Source of the DNA: a virus
Reading direction: 5' to 3' (one strand)
IMG/VR virus record: IMGVR_UViG_3300020190_000404
Coordinates: 1-21,852 of that record
Length of the DNA: 21,852 bases
Shown here piece by piece: positions 354-20,309 of this stretch (its first letter is position 1; each line of letters begins with the position of its first letter). A program made the translations under genes and the position numbers. The notes below the pieces were generated by a model, which saw nothing but the letters and a program-made list of their open reading frames with translations, was not told where the DNA came from and ran no database searches.

Positions 354-373
354 ATAAGACTATGATAGCAGGA

Positions 374-628
374 TTAGAATGGCATGTCAAGAGGAGGACC
401 TGCAAGTCCAATATCAGGAGATTCTATGGCTTTTTGCATCTCCTGTAATTCTTGCAGAATATCTTCAGGAATAGGACCTTTTTCAATTACAGGAACTAAT
501 AAGAAATCACCATACTCTTCAGTGGTCACTCTCAATGACATCCTATTTCTTCCAACAAGGACTTCACAGATAAACTCTGCGTTGTCTCTTAGTTCTGATA
601 GACTAATTACAGGTACTTGTGTGTTCAT
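374..628 (-). CDS. Small acidic protein of unknown function (84 aa)
   Basis: I do not recognise this protein. It is acidic, with a predicted beta-rich middle (FICEVLVGRNRMSLRVTTEEYGDFLLVPVIE) followed by a helix (EDILQELQEMQKAIES) and a Pro/Gly-rich C-terminus. The start is supported by an ATGA overlap (625-628) with the stop of the upstream 65-aa gene, a coupling typical of phage operons. It lies directly upstream of the tRNA pair on the same strand. The + strand open frame covering the same bases is judged a shadow. Confidence 0.75.
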   Translation of the reverse strand: MNTQVPVISLSELRDNAEFICEVLVGRNRMSLRVTTEEYGDFLLVPVIEKGPIPEDILQELQEMQKAIESPDIGLAGPPLDMPF

Positions 629-822: not shown

Positions 823-880
823 ACAGATTTAACCTTCGATAAACTCATCATAACATGACCAGCTGCCTTTGTCAAGGGAG

Positions 881-3325
881 TTAATTTAATTTGATGGTTG
901 CCCCCTGAAGAGCCATGATTGCAGTTGCTGTAAGATTCATGCTTGATCCAGAAAATATTGCCATAGGACCAGTTGTTGCACTAATTGATGTAGCACCTGC
1001 AGCACAAGTCATAACCATTGCCCCAGTCGTAACTGTAAGTGTATAATTAAGCAGTGCTGTCATCATGATTGATCCACCAAGGTTCTTAACACAGAATCTG
1101 GGAACAGCATCTGGTCCTAATGATGCTGGAAATTGGAACATATCATAAGAACCAAACATGAAAGTTTTGATGCCAGAAACCCTAGCCAGTGGATTTGCGG
1201 GGAAGTTAATTTTTCTAGTAAGACATGGGGTTTCAACAAAAATTGCATTACCAGCACACAGTTTTAAGTCATTCGAGCAATTGATATTTAAAGAAGGAGC
1301 ATTCAGATTTAAGGTATCAGTAATTAATTTAACATCTGTGCCTGGTTTTGCAATAGTACTATTAGCTACACCTTGTGTCTCAAATTTACCTCGACAATTT
1401 ACTTCTGTATCAGAGTCAAAGATGATACTATTTTTGGTTGCCTTCATCCCTTGACCAGATGCTGTTCCATCATTTTTCTTTGATTTGGGAGCATTTTTAA
1501 CATGAAGTGCAAGTCTTCCTTCAACTTCAATATTCAAACTTCCTACAATTTTTAGTGAGTAATCACCGTCTACGGTATGAACGAAAGAACCTTTATTATA
1601 GACACCGAAGTCTTTATCACTATTGATTGAAGTAGGATGTGGGAATACAAATTCGTCGCCAGCAACAGTATTTCTAGCATTGCCTGGAGTGATAGCTCTT
1701 GGATCACTGTTTGGATTATTTTTCTGGCGATTCATTTCTCTGACATAATTATTATATGTCGTATCATTAGTTTTAAGTGAACGGTGCTCTGCGCCAGATG
1801 GGAAGTGCGTAATTGTTCCTTGTCTACCAGGTGTTCCCAGTTGAGCCTGACCATAACCACTGGGTGAGGTATATACTGCAGTTCTAAATGCATCTGCATG
1901 TTTTACAACCTGCTGTAAAATATTAGCTGCTGCAGACGCTGCTGCCGCTGCACCTGCTGATCCGCTCCCGCAAGGTCCAGGACTTGCTGGATTGCTGCCT
2001 GGCGGATCACAAGAAGTAGTTCCTCTAAATGGAGTAAATCTATTCAATCCCTCATTTGGTGCTTGTCGATCACATTGAGTCAAGAATAAACCTAATATCA
2101 TTGAAATTACACTAGCGATACTAGTGATATTGTTAATATCTAGTTTTTCTAAGTTTTCGAAGAATGTTTTTCCTGTCTTGATAATGTCAGCAATTGCTTT
2201 AGCGACTTGAATTGCAGTTTTAATCGCACTGATAATACTTCGTATAGTGTTGAATGCACCATTAATTGCACAAATAATGCTATTAACTAGAGTATTATAT
2301 GCTTTATTGAGCATAGCAATAAGTGAATCTAATGCTTGTCCAATAATACCTATGACAAATCCTGACAAATTACCTAGGGCAGATAATGCTTGACTTAGAA
2401 AACTACTATCAATACCACAAATATATTGTAATACTAGTTGAATAATTGCTTGAATTGCAGTAGTAATAATTAGAGGAATACCAGTCTGTCCAAATATTCT
2501 AATTGCTTTAAGTGCCTTTGAAATCTGTTGCAAGAACAGTTCTTTTAATCCAGCAAGTGCTTCAGAAAATATACCCATGACTAGATTTTCTATCTTACCT
2601 ATTAGGGCATCAACATTAGTCAATGTTCCATCTAGTGTATTTAAAAATCCACCACCATTGTTGGGTACTAAATGACTAACACGATGAGCAAGATCAGCAA
2701 ACATTGACTTCATGTGTTGCTCAAAATTACTCTCCATTCCATTTGCTGCAGGTATGTCTTGAGTCGCTGCAGTAGCTAATCCAGTATTCGTGAGTGGGTT
2801 CGTAGGATTTGGTTTAGTCTCAGTGCCTGGGGGCGCAGCGTTGCTGGTTTGAGGACCTGGAGTCTCCACTACTGGAGAATTAGTTCCTGCTACGCTTTGA
2901 TTTGCTTCTGATGCATTAGTGTATTTTTGACCTGTTAGACCTTCGATTAAACCATTCTCTGTTGATGGTTTTTTTGTTCCTCGAACAACACCCATAACAA
3001 TTGGAGATTGTGCCTCTTCACCATCTAGGAAAAATCCCATAACCATAGCGCCTTGCTGCAGTTGACCTGCAGACTCACCCGATGCAGCAACTCCAGACTG
3101 ATTAGTAGGTTGTAAAACAACTGCCCATGGTAGATCAGTATCTGGCATAGTCGTTCTGAAATCCGACGAAGTACCAGTATACCAACCAAAAATACGTACT
3201 CTAACCCTACCGACTTTTAATGGATCTCTATTGTCTACAACTTCTCCAAACCACCAATAATATCCGTCCTTTCCAATAAAATCAACTTTAGGTTCATTAA
3301 TAACCCCATCAAAAGAGCGTGACAT
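881..3325 (-). CDS. 5: gp5-like baseplate hub/central spike protein without a recognisable lysozyme domain
   Basis: This is the T4 gp5-type spike at the tip of the tail tube. With the start at 3325 it has 814 residues. Residues about 10-135 form the OB-fold (GYYWWFGEVVDNRDPLKVGR, DLPWAVVLQPT, MVMGFFLDGEEAQSP, VMGVVRG). A Pro/Asn/Thr linker follows. Residues about 210-430 are a hydrophobic, mostly helical stretch rich in Ile, Leu and Ala. From about 600 to the end, short hydrophobic/small-residue repeats (LNLNAPSLNINCSNDL, MVMTCAAGATSISATTG) fit the triple-stranded beta-helix needle. T4 gp5 has a lysozyme domain between the OB and helix parts; none is visible here, while a separate lysozyme gene sits immediately upstream. 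I prefer ATG at 3325 (MSRSFDG) over 3346, because 3346 lies only 4 nt from a perfect late promoter box (3350-3357). Confidence 0.9.
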   Translation of the reverse strand: MSRSFDGVINEPKVDFIGKDGYYWWFGEVVDNRDPLKVGRVRVRIFGWYTGTSSDFRTTMPDTDLPWAVVLQPTNQSGVAASGESAGQLQQGAMVMGFFLDGEEAQSPIVMGVVRGTKKPSTENGLIEGLTGQKYTNASEANQSVAGTNSPVVETPGPQTSNAAPPGTETKPNPTNPLTNTGLATAATQDIPAANGMESNFEQHMKSMFADLAHRVSHLVPNNGGGFLNTLDGTLTNVDALIGKIENLVMGIFSEALAGLKELFLQQISKALKAIRIFGQTGIPLIITTAIQAIIQLVLQYICGIDSSFLSQALSALGNLSGFVIGIIGQALDSLIAMLNKAYNTLVNSIICAINGAFNTIRSIISAIKTAIQVAKAIADIIKTGKTFFENLEKLDINNITSIASVISMILGLFLTQCDRQAPNEGLNRFTPFRGTTSCDPPGSNPASPGPCGSGSAGAAAAASAAANILQQVVKHADAFRTAVYTSPSGYGQAQLGTPGRQGTITHFPSGAEHRSLKTNDTTYNNYVREMNRQKNNPNSDPRAITPGNARNTVAGDEFVFPHPTSINSDKDFGVYNKGSFVHTVDGDYSLKIVGSLNIEVEGRLALHVKNAPKSKKNDGTASGQGMKATKNSIIFDSDTEVNCRGKFETQGVANSTIAKPGTDVKLITDTLNLNAPSLNINCSNDLKLCAGNAIFVETPCLTRKINFPANPLARVSGIKTFMFGSYDMFQFPASLGPDAVPRFCVKNLGGSIMMTALLNYTLTVTTGAMVMTCAAGATSISATTGPMAIFSGSSMNLTATAIMALQGATIKLN

Positions 3326-3349
3326 GTAAAAACTAAGACACTTCAAAAA

Positions 3350-3357
3350 TATTTATA
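3350..3357 (-). promoter_or_regulatory. T4-type late promoter (TATAAATA)
   Basis: A perfect TATAAATA on the - strand, 24 nt upstream of the preferred gp5 start. In T4 this box is read by the gp55-containing RNA polymerase helped by gp33, and a gp33 gene is in this window (20914-21240). The box lies directly after the terminator of the upstream lysozyme gene, so gp5 appears to be its own late transcription unit. Confidence 0.8.
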
Positions 3358-3395: not shown

Positions 3396-4025
3396 TTAAA
3401 CTTCTACCGTGATCAGTTTGGAAGCATAATCATGTGCATAATGTGTGCGAGCACCATGAATGCCCCAACCAATCCAATCATACGCATAGTCCATGTAACG
3501 ACTGATAGACTTACCAGGAGTTTTCATCTTCTCCTCAATGTCTAACCATTGGACCTCATTTGTTAGATAACGAAGTTGCGTGTCAAGTGTTGATGGTGAA
3601 CCACCATACTTCTTAGCAAAATCACCCAATCCATAATATCTATTGGCAGATGTCCATTGGATCAGTCCGTAGCCGCCGTAGCAACCACCGTAACTGGTCC
3701 TGCTGCCACCTTCGCAAATATTAGGAACAAAAGTAGACTCTTGTTTAATATTGCCCATGATGGTAGCAAGGGCGTTTCTGTCTTTAATTCCACGATCCTG
3801 GAAATATGCCAGGGTAGCATTCTCATTGTCTGAACACCCTTTACAAATTAGCCTTTTCTCTTTTGGCTTTTCGGGAGCAACCTCTTTGGTCGCTGTCGTT
3901 TCAAACTCCTTAATAATAGAAAACGGCACTGGAGGTGTCGTCAAAGGAGGAAATATCGGCATCGTTGCCATATTGGTTGTAACCGTTGCCACGAGAGGCA
4001 GGGCTACAGTAAGGAATTGTTGCAT
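3396..4025 (-). CDS. Tail-type lysozyme (phage tail lysozyme family) with hydrophobic N-terminus
   Basis: This 209-residue protein probably cuts peptidoglycan. Residues about 68-205 match the phage tail lysozyme fold: LATIMGNIKQESTF with the likely catalytic Glu at E96, then YGLIQWTSANRYYGLGDFAKKYG, a core found in many hub lysozymes. Residues 1-20 (MQQFLTVALPLVATVTTNMA) are hydrophobic like a signal or signal-anchor, followed by a Pro/Thr-rich linker. C61 and C64 form a CxxC pair, with further Cys at 104 and 115, possibly disulfides. Its place upstream of a lysozyme-free gp5 suggests it supplies the enzyme activity that T4 carries inside gp5. The hydrophobic N-terminus also leaves open a secreted endolysin role. 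Confidence 0.82.
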   Translation of the reverse strand: MQQFLTVALPLVATVTTNMATMPIFPPLTTPPVPFSIIKEFETTATKEVAPEKPKEKRLICKGCSDNENATLAYFQDRGIKDRNALATIMGNIKQESTFVPNICEGGSRTSYGGCYGGYGLIQWTSANRYYGLGDFAKKYGGSPSTLDTQLRYLTNEVQWLDIEEKMKTPGKSISRYMDYAYDWIGWGIHGARTHYAHDYASKLITVEV

Positions 4026-4054: not shown

Positions 4055-4143
4055 GAAGGGGGGTATACCACCCCTCTCGGGGGGCACCTTCCTCGGCTCT
4101 AATGGTAATACTCATTCTCTCATAATGTTTTTTGGTATTACCA
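4055..4143. other. Intergenic region with strong inverted repeats
   Basis: Between tRNA-Val and the lysozyme gene lie two structures. At 4055-4091 a GAAGG/CCTTC outer stem encloses GGGG, CCCC and GGGG blocks, where the C block can pair with either G block. At 4103-4143 a 9-bp inverted repeat (TGGTAATAC with GTATTACCA) ends 2 nt from the 3' end of tRNA-Val. Neither has a clear U tract, so they may be processing or stability hairpins rather than terminators. Confidence 0.5.
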
Positions 4144-4144
4144 A

Positions 4145-4216
4145 TGGGCGATGACGGATTCGAACCGCCGACCAATTGCGTGTAAAGCAACTGCGCTACC
4201 GCTGCGCTAATCGCCC
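4145..4216 (-). tRNA. tRNA-Val (anticodon UAC)
   Basis: A 72-nt cloverleaf on the - strand: acceptor GGGCGAT/ATCGCCC, D arm GCGCAGCGGTAGCGC, anticodon loop TTTACAC with anticodon UAC, T arm GGCGG-TTCGAAT-CCGTC (with one mismatch), discriminator A and no encoded CCA. Its first 21 nt are also the last codons and stop of the CpeT-like gene upstream on the same strand. Confidence 0.96.
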
Positions 4217-4651
4217 GAAATGGTAATAATCAAGACTACCCCATACTAATTTGTCATCTACAAATCCAGCATCACGAGTTAAAAATTGACCTGGTTGTAA
4301 TTGGAACTCAGAACGGAGTGTGGCACCATTAATGATACACCCCGTTCCAAGATTATTTCCAATCCACACTCCATCAGAATTTGTAATGACCATATCACAC
4401 AAGGCATTCCGAGTACCATCAATATCCCAAGTTTGTGCTAAAATCCCAGATTCTATTTCAATAAAAGTTTTAATCTTTTCTCGGTAGGGTTTATCTTCTC
4501 CCATGTAGTGATACCACTGCTTTGAAAGAATTTTTCCTTCACCGACATCATTCCAAGAACTAAGAATCCAGGAGTAGCGTGTTGGGTTGCTGAATGCTTG
4601 ATCTTTGTTTGACCATCGACCAAGCAGGCAACTCAGGAACTCTGTTATCAT
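4196..4651 (-). CDS. cpeT: CpeT-like protein (phycobiliprotein bilin lyase family)
   Basis: CpeT/CpcT proteins attach or handle bilins on phycobiliproteins of the host's light-harvesting antenna; cyanophages are known to carry homologues. The family signature is clear: LLGRWSNKDQAFSNPTRY near the start, KQWYHYMGEDKPYREKI, CDMVITNSDGVWIGN, GCIINGATLRSEF and a C-terminal VWGSLDYYHFGR like the family's 'WGS..GPF.F.R'. I chose ATG 4651 (151 aa) because the family begins near this point and it lies after the CP12 stop; an in-frame ATG at 4693 would overlap CP12. No strong ribosome site is seen for either start. The last residues (RLAQR) and stop codon lie inside tRNA-Val. Confidence 0.85.
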   Translation of the reverse strand: MITEFLSCLLGRWSNKDQAFSNPTRYSWILSSWNDVGEGKILSKQWYHYMGEDKPYREKIKTFIEIESGILAQTWDIDGTRNALCDMVITNSDGVWIGNNLGTGCIINGATLRSEFQLQPGQFLTRDAGFVDDKLVWGSLDYYHFGRLAQR

Positions 4652-4671
4652 AACACGAGAAGAGTGGGTTG

Positions 4672-4884
4672 TCAAATGTCGTACTTTTTGCATTCTACTG
4701 CATCTGGATGACCATCACAGAATAACTCTAGTGAAGTGGGATCATGGTCATCATTGGGATGATGCTGTTTATATGTTTCTAGAGCAGCAAGTTCTTCCTC
4801 TGTGTGCCTACGAGCTTGTGGAGACGTTTGAGGGTCATCTAGAATTTTTCTATCATGCTCTATATGTTGATCAATATTTTCCAT
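4672..4884 (-). CDS. cp12: CP12-like Calvin cycle regulator
   Basis: CP12 is a small, mostly disordered protein that locks phosphoribulokinase and glyceraldehyde-3-phosphate dehydrogenase into an inactive complex, slowing carbon fixation. The 70-residue product has the C-terminal GAPDH-binding signature: LELFCDGHPDAVECKKYD, with both Cys and the Asp/Tyr end. A charged helix (RRHTEEELAALETYKQH) sits where the family has its central helix. The N-terminal cysteine pair of plant-type CP12 is absent. Cyanophages are known to carry CP12, thought to divert reducing power to nucleotide synthesis. It is followed by cpeT on the same strand, and a late-like box lies at 4912-4919. Confidence 0.9.
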   Translation of the reverse strand: MENIDQHIEHDRKILDDPQTSPQARRHTEEELAALETYKQHHPNDDHDPTSLELFCDGHPDAVECKKYDI

Positions 4885-4911
4885 TGAACGTATCTTAATG
4901 AACGTTATGAG

Positions 4912-4919
4912 TATTTATC
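4912..4919 (-). promoter_or_regulatory. Possible late promoter box (GATAAATA) before CP12
   Basis: GATAAATA on the - strand begins inside the TGA stop of the gp27-like gene and lies 28 nt before the CP12 ATG, a suitable distance. It fits NATAAATA. If used, CP12, cpeT and tRNA-Val would be transcribed late as one unit. Confidence 0.5.
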
Positions 4920-6264
4920 ATGCTGGTGTATTAACACCTAGAGAATCCTTAACTACGGTTATTTCAGTACTTAGTGTATTTCCCCCAGCAAACTTATGTC
5001 TGACTCCAGCAATGACGTATTTACCACTGTATATCCTGTCCAGTTCTATATTTGTTGATGATGAATTTTGGTTTATCATCTTTGGTATTTCAATCTCAAC
5101 ACCTTTCCCTGGAGTTAATTTGATATTACCAGGAACTTTCATATCTAATTTGATATGTGAAAAATTATTTTTTCTGCAATAATTATAAATTGCAGTTTCC
5201 TCCCAACGCACAGGAACTTCTCCAGTATTAGGATTTGCTGTTCCTGCAGTAGTTCCAGTATTCTTATCCCATAAATGCAACTGATTTGTACGATAACGAT
5301 TTCTTCTTACGGAATTTAATAATGTATCGTATGCTGCCCCATCGCCCGTTTGAGTATATGGATTTTGGTTTCCAAGGTGTTCCATTCGATTATAAATTTC
5401 TGTCAATTTAAATACTACACCTGAATAAGGAATCTGTTTATTTCCTGTTGGAGTAGGAACTTTTGATAACGGTAGATAGTCTAATGAAATACCAGTAAAT
5501 ATTCCTGCCCAGGTTCCATTTCTCAAATTACCTAAAGCATCAAAAAGAGATGGATATGCAATTGACTCTATAGTATACAGATCTTGCCCATCAGCATTAG
5601 GTTGAGTATTTTTCATTGCATATCGATATCTGGGAAGTTGACTCGCAGATTTAATATCTGCAATGATTTTATCAAAAGAAGTATAATTATACCCAAATTG
5701 ATTTTCAAAAAAGATAAATCCACCTTGTTTATTGTTTGCTGATCTTACTGCCTTTCCACCTAACCAGTTAATAACTTCAAAAGGTCTCCAATTTGGTATG
5801 ACACATTGAACCTTATCTGCAGTAGATTCTATTTTTGTTCTACTACTAGATATGCTTAAATTTGTTTCTAGAAGCTCTTTAACTATTTCATGAGATTTTT
5901 TATTCTTATATGATTTAAATATAGATGTAATTTCATTCATCATAAATTCTGGGGACACACATTCTATTGTATATGCTTCCTTTTTCTCCATTCTAATCCT
6001 ATTTGTCAATCGATATGCACGTACTTCATAGGTGTAAGTTTGATCGTCTGTAGTCTTGGGTTTTATCCTTATACGAATCAATTCATTACCACGCAATCGA
6101 TCTATGAAATTTACAGAATCATTCACAGCAATAGATATTCTCCTGCATGGGAAATCTAAGGACTCAATAATGTTGAATTCAGTGACAAGTGGCATGATAT
6201 CAAAATTACCATTGGCGGTGTTTCCAACAACTGTAATTTCTTCTACTTTTACTTCAGCTGACAT
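4918..6264 (-). CDS. 27: gp27-like baseplate hub protein
   Basis: This 448-residue protein resembles T4 gp27 in its cyanophage form, the hub ring that joins the tail tube to the gp5 spike. Features are the opening tube-like beta domain (FDIMPLVTEFNIIESLDFPCRRISIAVNDS...NFIDRLRGNELIRIRI), the second strand set (YTYEVRAYRLTNRIRMEKKEAYTIECVSPE), a middle FKSYKNKKSHEIVKELL helix, and a C-terminal beta region (LTPGKGVEIEIPK...YSGKYVIAGVRHKF) typical of hub proteins. T4 gp27 is 391 aa. The start is supported by AAGGGAGA about 8 nt before ATG. It begins 13 nt after the stop of the 1280-aa tape-measure-like gene, and is followed by TGA TAA in tandem. Confidence 0.85.
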   Translation of the reverse strand: MSAEVKVEEITVVGNTANGNFDIMPLVTEFNIIESLDFPCRRISIAVNDSVNFIDRLRGNELIRIRIKPKTTDDQTYTYEVRAYRLTNRIRMEKKEAYTIECVSPEFMMNEITSIFKSYKNKKSHEIVKELLETNLSISSSRTKIESTADKVQCVIPNWRPFEVINWLGGKAVRSANNKQGGFIFFENQFGYNYTSFDKIIADIKSASQLPRYRYAMKNTQPNADGQDLYTIESIAYPSLFDALGNLRNGTWAGIFTGISLDYLPLSKVPTPTGNKQIPYSGVVFKLTEIYNRMEHLGNQNPYTQTGDGAAYDTLLNSVRRNRYRTNQLHLWDKNTGTTAGTANPNTGEVPVRWEETAIYNYCRKNNFSHIKLDMKVPGNIKLTPGKGVEIEIPKMINQNSSSTNIELDRIYSGKYVIAGVRHKFAGGNTLSTEITVVKDSLGVNTPA

Positions 6265-19936: not shown

Positions 19937-19969
19937 TTTGTTGGATGATCATACCAACAAAGGTATGAT
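19937..19969 (-). promoter_or_regulatory. Predicted H-type RNA pseudoknot in the gp32 mRNA leader
   Basis: In the - strand RNA, AUCAUACC (19969-19962) pairs with GGUAUGAU (19955-19948) as an 8-bp stem. Its loop UUUGUU (19961-19956) is fully complementary to AACAAA (19942-19937), separated by CAUCC. It is followed by an A/U-rich unstructured stretch and the GGAG/ATG of gp32, 23 nt beyond the structure. T4 gp32 mRNA has a pseudoknot in the same position, where gp32 nucleates binding and shuts off its own translation. Confidence 0.7.
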
Positions 19970-19973
19970 ACTC

Positions 19974-19980
19974 TATTTAG
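19974..19980 (-). promoter_or_regulatory. Possible late promoter box (CTAAATA) before gp32
   Basis: CTAAATA overlaps the TAA stop of the DUF1825 gene and lies 60 nt before the gp32 ATG. A transcript starting 5-7 nt downstream would begin right at the foot of the pseudoknot stem. T4 gene 32 is also read from its own late promoter. Confidence 0.4.
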
Positions 19981-20309
19981 TCCACCTTGTCAAGCGATGC
20001 CCGCACGTTGTCCAAATATTTCGTCATAGAATCAAGAGATTCTGACAAAGTATTGTATCCAAACATGTTGGTAATTAAGTCGATACGATGTCTCATATCA
20101 GCTGCATCTTCGTCTTCACAAGAAGATAATTGAAGTCTAATATAGAAAAGTTTTTGCTTCTCAATGAGTGCCTTAGTTTTTTCTATGTGTTTAATTGCTT
20201 TATCTTTTGGCATTTCGCCAATTGCTTCTGCATTCTTTTGCAGTTCTAGATAGTTGTCGTAAATTGATTGAAGTTGTTCCTGAACGATTTCAGAATTAAA
20301 AAAGCTCAT
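19977..20309 (-). CDS. DUF1825-family protein, also found in cyanobacteria
   Basis: The 110-residue, helix-rich protein opens with MSFFNSEIVQEQLQSIYDNYLELQ, close to the cyanobacterial DUF1825 opening 'MAFFDSEIVQ.E...L..DY..L', followed by a second helix (KAIKHIEKTKALIEKQKLFYIRL) and a C-terminal helix pair (LSESLDSMTKYLDNVRASLDKV). No enzyme motif is seen; the function of the family is unknown to me. It overlaps gp59 by 4 nt and lies directly upstream of gp32, so it is probably made with the replication proteins. UvsY, another small helical T4 protein, was considered but the opening does not fit. Confidence 0.75.
   Translation of the reverse strand: MSFFNSEIVQEQLQSIYDNYLELQKNAEAIGEMPKDKAIKHIEKTKALIEKQKLFYIRLQLSSCEDEDAADMRHRIDLITNMFGYNTLSESLDSMTKYLDNVRASLDKVD

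Follow-up and report, generated by a model that had tools for sequence, protein, structure and literature searches.

Where a tRNA gene follows it, the cpeT gene of T4-like cyanophages was found to run into that gene without a stop codon and to take its stop from inside the tRNA. The locus was analyzed in a 21,852-base virus record from a T4-like cyanophage (this whole stretch is called the window) and in related regions of other phages. Its anatomy (gene identities, the overlap and its conservation, the late box, and the nested sites) is strongly supported by the sequence comparisons; promoter activity, timing, competition with RNase P, and any benefit are what we infer from that anatomy. At roughly even chances, CP12 and CpeT would be transcribed late, a promoter for the tRNA would be nested in this unit, and CpeT and tRNA-Val would be alternative products.

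Gene content and order of the locus

Features are given in window coordinates and were as follows:

19965-19993, minus strand: sigma-70-type site TTGACA-17-TATNAT before gp32
4918-6264, minus strand: tail/hub gene at the gp27 position (PHROG 350 'tail protein')
4912-4919, minus strand: late-type promoter box GATAAATA (sequence scan; predicted start ~4905)
4672-4884, minus strand: CP12 gene, 70 aa (Pfam PF02672, E 2.4e-12; PDB 6gfo, 3zdf)
4647-4675, minus strand: sigma-70-type site TTGACA-17-TATGAT (predicted start ~4640)
4196-4651, minus strand: cpeT, 151 aa, T-type phycobiliprotein lyase family (PF06206, PHROG 488, PDB 5hi8)
4196-4216, minus strand: cpeT/tRNA-Val overlap, 21 nt; the cpeT stop TAG is tRNA nucleotides 19-21 (D-loop)
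4145-4216, minus strand: tRNA-Val, anticodon TAC (ARAGORN)
4103-4143, minus strand: hairpin directly 3' of the tRNA, arms 4135-4143 and 4103-4111, 9 bp, with compensatory changes in relatives
3396-4025, minus strand: small Phage_lysozyme2 protein (PF18013, PHROG 512), variable cargo between tRNA and gp5 (Pfam, PHROG)
881-3346, minus strand: gp5-like baseplate hub/tail lysozyme (Gp5_OB; Pfam, PHROG), with TATAAATA at 3350-3357
847-875, minus strand: sigma-70-type site TTGACA-17-TATNAT before the DUF7294/Phd-like antitoxin small gene pair
362-390, minus strand: sigma-70-type site TTGACA-17-TATNAT before tRNA-Asp

The transcription order on the minus strand is therefore the gp27-position tail/hub gene, CP12, cpeT, tRNA-Val, the lysozyme-like gene, and the gp5-like hub. 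The CP12 translation matched PF02672 at 47.9 bits against a curated cut-off of 22.7 and aligned to the CP12 chain of PDB 6gfo and to 3zdf. It keeps the C-terminal cysteine pair (FCDGHPDAVEC) in the region that binds GAPDH in the family. The N-terminal pair of typical host CP12, which the family profile does not require, is absent, the translation having two C-terminal cysteines only; because this pair is missing, the product was named a CP12-domain protein and not a full host-type CP12.

The open reading frame at 4196-4693 matched Pfam CpeT (PF06206; E 3.7e-9, 37.2 bits against a cut-off of 21) and PHROG 488 'CpeT-like antenna protein' (E 1.3e-33). CpeT also matched PDB 5hi8 (E 3.8e-8), deposited as 'Antenna protein', which we take to be the CpeT of phage P-HM1. 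By family it is a relative of the bilin lyases, and bilin attachment is predicted. No tRNA-related family was matched in the Pfam and PHROG profile searches. The conserved start is the ATG at 4651 and not the codon at 4693, which is ATG in the window and TTG in S-CREM1.

A sequence-only reading of the window had placed CP12, CpeT, and tRNA-Val between gene 27 and the tail lysozyme, had taken the two proteins for host-derived metabolic regulators lying within a structural cluster, and had regarded the set as an inserted cassette. The placement was confirmed by ARAGORN and by the Pfam, PHROG, and PDB matches, and the family matches and neighbors likewise upheld the description of CP12 and CpeT as host-type metabolic proteins in a structural cluster. 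The neighbors had to be partly corrected: gp5 proper (Gp5_OB, 881-3346) does lie downstream, but the gene adjoining the cassette (3396-4025) encodes the small Phage_lysozyme2 protein, and the 'gene 27' label of 4918-6264 has position and PHROG 350 as its basis, without a direct gp27 match.

The idea of an unusual insertion did not hold. The order tail gene-CP12-CpeT-tRNA-gp5 was found in Syn9, S-SM1, S-RIM4, S-RIM8, S-H38, S-MS29, and S-8S29, and S-CREM1 has a gene order identical to that of the window. S-MbCM6 keeps the order and has no tRNA, and in S-T4, DSL-LC02, DSL-LC03, and SynMITS9220M01 CP12 lies directly between the tail gene and gp5. Relatives of CpeT and of CP12 occurred in 332 and 362 phage records, respectively. 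As early as 2010, a paper reported a hot spot 'near gp5 with tRNAs' and placed cp12 close to gp5 and tRNAs (PMC3037559). Judged from these records, gp27-CP12-CpeT-tRNA-gp5 is the standard order of the Kyanoviridae and no new insertion. Variable cargo, for which a comparison between cyanophages had been proposed, was indeed present, and the varying genes lie between the tRNA and gp5 only; relatives usually carry variable genes there, with other cargo in S-CREM1, S-H38, S-MbCM6, and S-SM1. Genes at other loci of DSL-LC02, DSL-LC03, and S-SRM01 share ~81-86% DNA identity with the lysozyme-like gene at 3396-4025, which therefore seems to be mobile between sites.

The cpeT stop codon inside the tRNA

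The cpeT frame reads ...HFGRLAQR-stop; its last six codons and TAG are nucleotides 1-21 of tRNA-Val, and no stop codon lies ahead of the tRNA. The overlap survey covered 89 distinct regions with cpeT, taken from GenBank and IMG/VR, and counted a tRNA if it lay ≤150 nt downstream. The stop was inside the tRNA in 69 of 69 tRNA-bearing regions and before it in none; 20 of the 89 had no tRNA. Four regions had been found by a pattern that itself contains the overlap, and without them the count is 65 of 65. Stops fell at tRNA nucleotides 8-10 (36 regions), 19-21 (the D-loop TAG; 30 regions), or 1 or 6 (three regions), and the overlapping tRNAs were Val, Gly, or Thr. At least 11 changes of junction state were needed on a cpeT tree built without the tRNA-encoded tail. 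Judged from this tree, the junction is one that has changed repeatedly, yet the stop is still inside wherever a tRNA is present.

The cpeT end of S-MbCM6 (L108), GGCGCATAACTCA, equals 12 of 13 letters of the start of a near relative's tRNA at the same place, a match that is not significant as a free search and is notable by its position. It seems to be a fossil, left when the tRNA decayed and the stop codon stayed behind.

Gene ends inside tRNAs occur elsewhere in cyanophages as a far weaker habit than at cpeT: frames of ≥50 aa ended in a tRNA at 12 of the 70 tRNAs not following cpeT (same loci; 128 tRNAs), and other such genes are found in S-RSM4, S-SM1, and S-RIM4. Non-CpeT frames of 89-117 codons in three regions (L098, L103, L196) end 10-11 nt inside tRNA-Thr, like many cpeT stops. 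Host relatives that might have served as a control for the overlap were not found in a single-protein scan. Among open-access papers, none was found that names the cpeT/tRNA overlap. The tRNA-Val with anticodon TAC matches codon GTA, which is used more by S-CREM1 than by its host (17.8 against 4.0 per thousand codons; PMC9964418) and stands at 16.5 per thousand codons in the window, in line with a need to supply this tRNA.

Sigma-70-type sites at and within cpeT

The minus strand of the window holds four TTGACA-17-TATNAT sites and the plus strand none, where 0.015 would be expected per strand. The -35 of the site at the CP12/cpeT junction overlaps the CP12 stop, its -10 contains the cpeT ATG, and TG precedes the -10. 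The site scores 11/12 with a 17-nt spacer, within the 16-18 nt expected of a sigma-70-type promoter, and its position is conserved in relatives: S-CREM1, S-H38, and IMG/VR relatives retain the hexamers at the same spacing but differ in the letters between them and in the flanking codons. RNA from this site could carry the tRNA but no full-length CpeT, because the expected start (~4640) lies past the cpeT ATG. The three other sites (362-390, 847-875, and 19965-19993) are likewise strong and are inside or beside late clusters.

Among 68 tRNA-bearing cpeT regions that were scored, 13 had the junction site only, two had both, and 53 had only a site inside cpeT; the 15 with a site at the cpeT start are the window clade and S-H38. 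The internal site has the form T[G/T][G/T]ACA-17-TAT[G/A][A/C]T, mostly TGGACA-17-TATGAT, and occupies one fixed place within cpeT, where it coincides with the residues W-T-R-x3-C-D-M-I. All 28 representatives have ACA as the Thr codon there, whereas ACA makes up about one third of Thr codons overall. No other codon of cpeT is under stronger synonymous constraint, on scores that are overstated by the relatedness of the sequences. GAT and TGT, in the -10 region, likewise do not vary. The internal site is also present in some cpeT genes without a following tRNA, so other genes may be its targets, or a different constraint may account for it.

No strong terminator was found between the CP12, CpeT, and tRNA-Val genes. 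In region L087, a terminator-like stem (GAGGGTTGACAACCCTC-TTTTTTT) stands just after CP12, and L090 is similar; the stem holds the -35 box of the next sigma-70-type site (with TATTCT or TAAAAT at 17 nt).

The late-type box before CP12 and the timing of the set

Late promoters of the T4 type have the form TATAAATA, and NATAAATA in S-PM2 (PMC2984593). The window has GATAAATA at 4912-4919, where it shares bases with the stop codon of the tail gene upstream, and encodes a gp33-type late-transcription coactivator (PF16805). ATAAATA as such is no rarer than chance on the AT-rich minus strand of the window (5 observed, 4.7 expected). Positional blocks and the opposite strand were used as controls; a reversed-sequence control was of no use, ATAAATA being identical when read backwards. 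Of 124 distinct upstream regions, 102 had TAAATA ≤60 nt before CP12; the two 60-nt blocks further out had it in 12 and 3, and the opposite strand in 0. With 92 cluster representatives, the counts per 60-nt block from CP12 outward were 74, 8, and 3. Many of the CP12 regions without TAAATA are those in which CP12 directly follows the tail gene.

By these counts the late-type box that the sequence-only reading had proposed is real, its position before CP12 being conserved far beyond chance across CP12 loci. It is a TATAAATA-like box shortly before a gene, in a phage with the gp33-type coactivator; it differs from the T4-type case in preceding a metabolic gene and in that its activity is predicted. 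From the conserved position, late transcription of CP12 is predicted, and CpeT expression by read-through is a reasonable further prediction.

The same reading had expected late expression of the whole set and had called such timing surprising for metabolic genes. The late box speaks for the CP12 part of the first claim; a single late unit for the whole set is unlikely, since CP12 and CpeT have a conserved sigma-70-type site between them. The surprise has its source in phages such as P-HM2, in which all metabolic genes, including cp12, belong to the middle cluster (PMC5082946). P-HM2 is no direct precedent here. Its cp12, a measured middle gene (PMC5082946), also has a TAAATA box upstream, as in the window, but it lies at another locus, next to talC, and TTGACA-17-TAGGAT overlaps that box on the same bases. 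The window CP12 has the late box without a site like TTGACA-17-TAGGAT. Because P-HM2 cp12 is at this other locus, its timing need not carry over to the window. Two cp12 contexts that had previously been discussed as one timing class can thus be told apart, with a late box at the gp5 locus and a sigma-70 site at the talC locus.

The CP12 leader (4884-4910) and those of relatives L012-L020 share a conserved ACGTTCA, in many cases as a repeat at a distance of 15-16 nt. The window clade has no clear ribosome-binding site in this leader; other clades have AGGAGG.

Proposed mechanism and alternatives

In the reading that we favor, two overlapping transcription units would share one tRNA. An RNA started at the late-type promoter, or extended into the locus from the tail operon, would carry CP12 and CpeT and run into tRNA-Val. 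Cleavage by RNase P at the tRNA 5' end would strip the last codons and the stop, leaving a stop-less cpeT mRNA, and a copy on which ribosomes had finished cpeT before the cut would make CpeT; each long transcript would thus yield either CpeT or mature tRNA-Val. From the sigma-70-type promoter at the cpeT start (inside cpeT in other genera), an RNA without the cpeT start codon would be made. It would serve the tRNA and downstream genes only, so that tRNA-Val could be supplied before CP12-CpeT and independently of it. The nested start, ~420 nt before the tRNA, implies a long leader and counts against this arrangement. That T4-like cyanophages in general use tRNA maturation as a built-in CpeT switch, together with an earlier tRNA-only supply from a promoter in cpeT, is put forward tentatively, as possible rather than probable.

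The strongest competing explanation is passive, unregulated compaction: a tRNA would have arrived at the cpeT 3' end, its conserved letters would have closed the frame by chance, the overlap would persist only for want of genome space, and both products would be made in sufficient amounts from the same RNA. We regard this as a real possibility, though not the one on which we would settle. Conserved letters of tRNA-Val close two of the three frames that can enter it, and a tRNA that comes to lie at the end of a gene can therefore produce an overlap passively; the 12 non-CpeT cases among the 128 tRNAs, the S-RSM4, S-SM1, and S-RIM4 genes, and the repeated changes of junction state on the cpeT tree fit the same account. 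It does not lead one to expect that none of the 69 tRNA-bearing cpeT genes would have a stop before the tRNA, which a point change could make, or that every tRNA-bearing cpeT scored would have a sigma-70-type site at its start or inside it.

The single late operon of the sequence-only reading, with CP12, CpeT, and tRNA-Val all driven by the late box, agrees with the conservation of that box, the common strand, and the lack of a strong intervening terminator. It is improbable given the conserved junction site, whose hexamers are kept while spacer letters change, and the like sites that precede non-structural genes elsewhere in the window. The location of the junction site exactly at the cpeT 5' end would suit a middle promoter of cpeT itself, in keeping with the middle timing of P-HM2 metabolic genes (PMC5082946), if translation began at an unrecognized start codon further downstream. 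After the ATG at 4651, no in-frame ATG, GTG, or TTG occurs before codon 50, which is inside the domain, and the N-terminal CpeT residues are conserved; such a promoter is very improbable.

Comparison with known systems and consequences

Near gp5, Syn9, S-SM1, and S-RIM4 have the same genes, order, strand, and flanking structural genes as the window, and their tRNA/cpeT overlap is already visible in record coordinates. The window clade differs from them in having the sigma-70-type site at the cpeT start, not inside the gene, and the lysozyme as downstream cargo. The closest precedent for cpeT/tRNA is bacterial selB-selC (Mukai 2021, PMC8124441). There the protein frame enters a tRNA on the same strand, with the stop inside the tRNA in some lineages; remnants are still found where the tRNA has been lost, and protein and tRNA were proposed as alternative products. 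The overlap logic is shared, the cpeT frame likewise ending in a same-strand tRNA. In selB-selC, however, the tRNA is mostly nested whole and is bound by the protein, whereas the products of cpeT/tRNA are functionally unrelated, the stop lies at nucleotides 8-10 or 19-21, and several tRNA types take part. The cpeT/tRNA pair may work like selB-selC but is not a member of that system, because CpeT has no match to a tRNA-related family.

An intact cpeT frame without a CDS annotation was found in S-CREM1, S-H38, S-MS29, and S-8S29 (L001, L107, L109, L114), and cpeT is not mentioned in the S-CREM1 paper (PMC9964418). We infer that the tRNA overlap made gene callers drop cpeT; surveys of cyanophage metabolic genes may undercount it, and the overlap possibly explains the missing annotation. 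Here a tRNA, which may be of several types, supplies the stop codon of a protein gene throughout a family of viruses abundant in the sea and in fresh water, and this offers a direct, testable link between tRNA processing and the expression of a metabolic gene.

The hairpin after the tRNA

The 9-bp hairpin at 4103-4143 was also found in 12 related regions, and the differences between relatives include several compensatory changes. The right arm of the hairpin is similar to the tail of cpeT. A target-site duplication flanking tRNA-Val was considered and dropped: the repeat is present in the window clade only, and its downstream copy is better described as the hairpin arm. The cpeT tail could compete for the left arm, with 8-9 of 9 pairs formed in most relatives, and such pairing was considered as a possible RNA switch. 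The hairpin is the better kept partner, and a compensated change in region L014 breaks the pairing with the tail.
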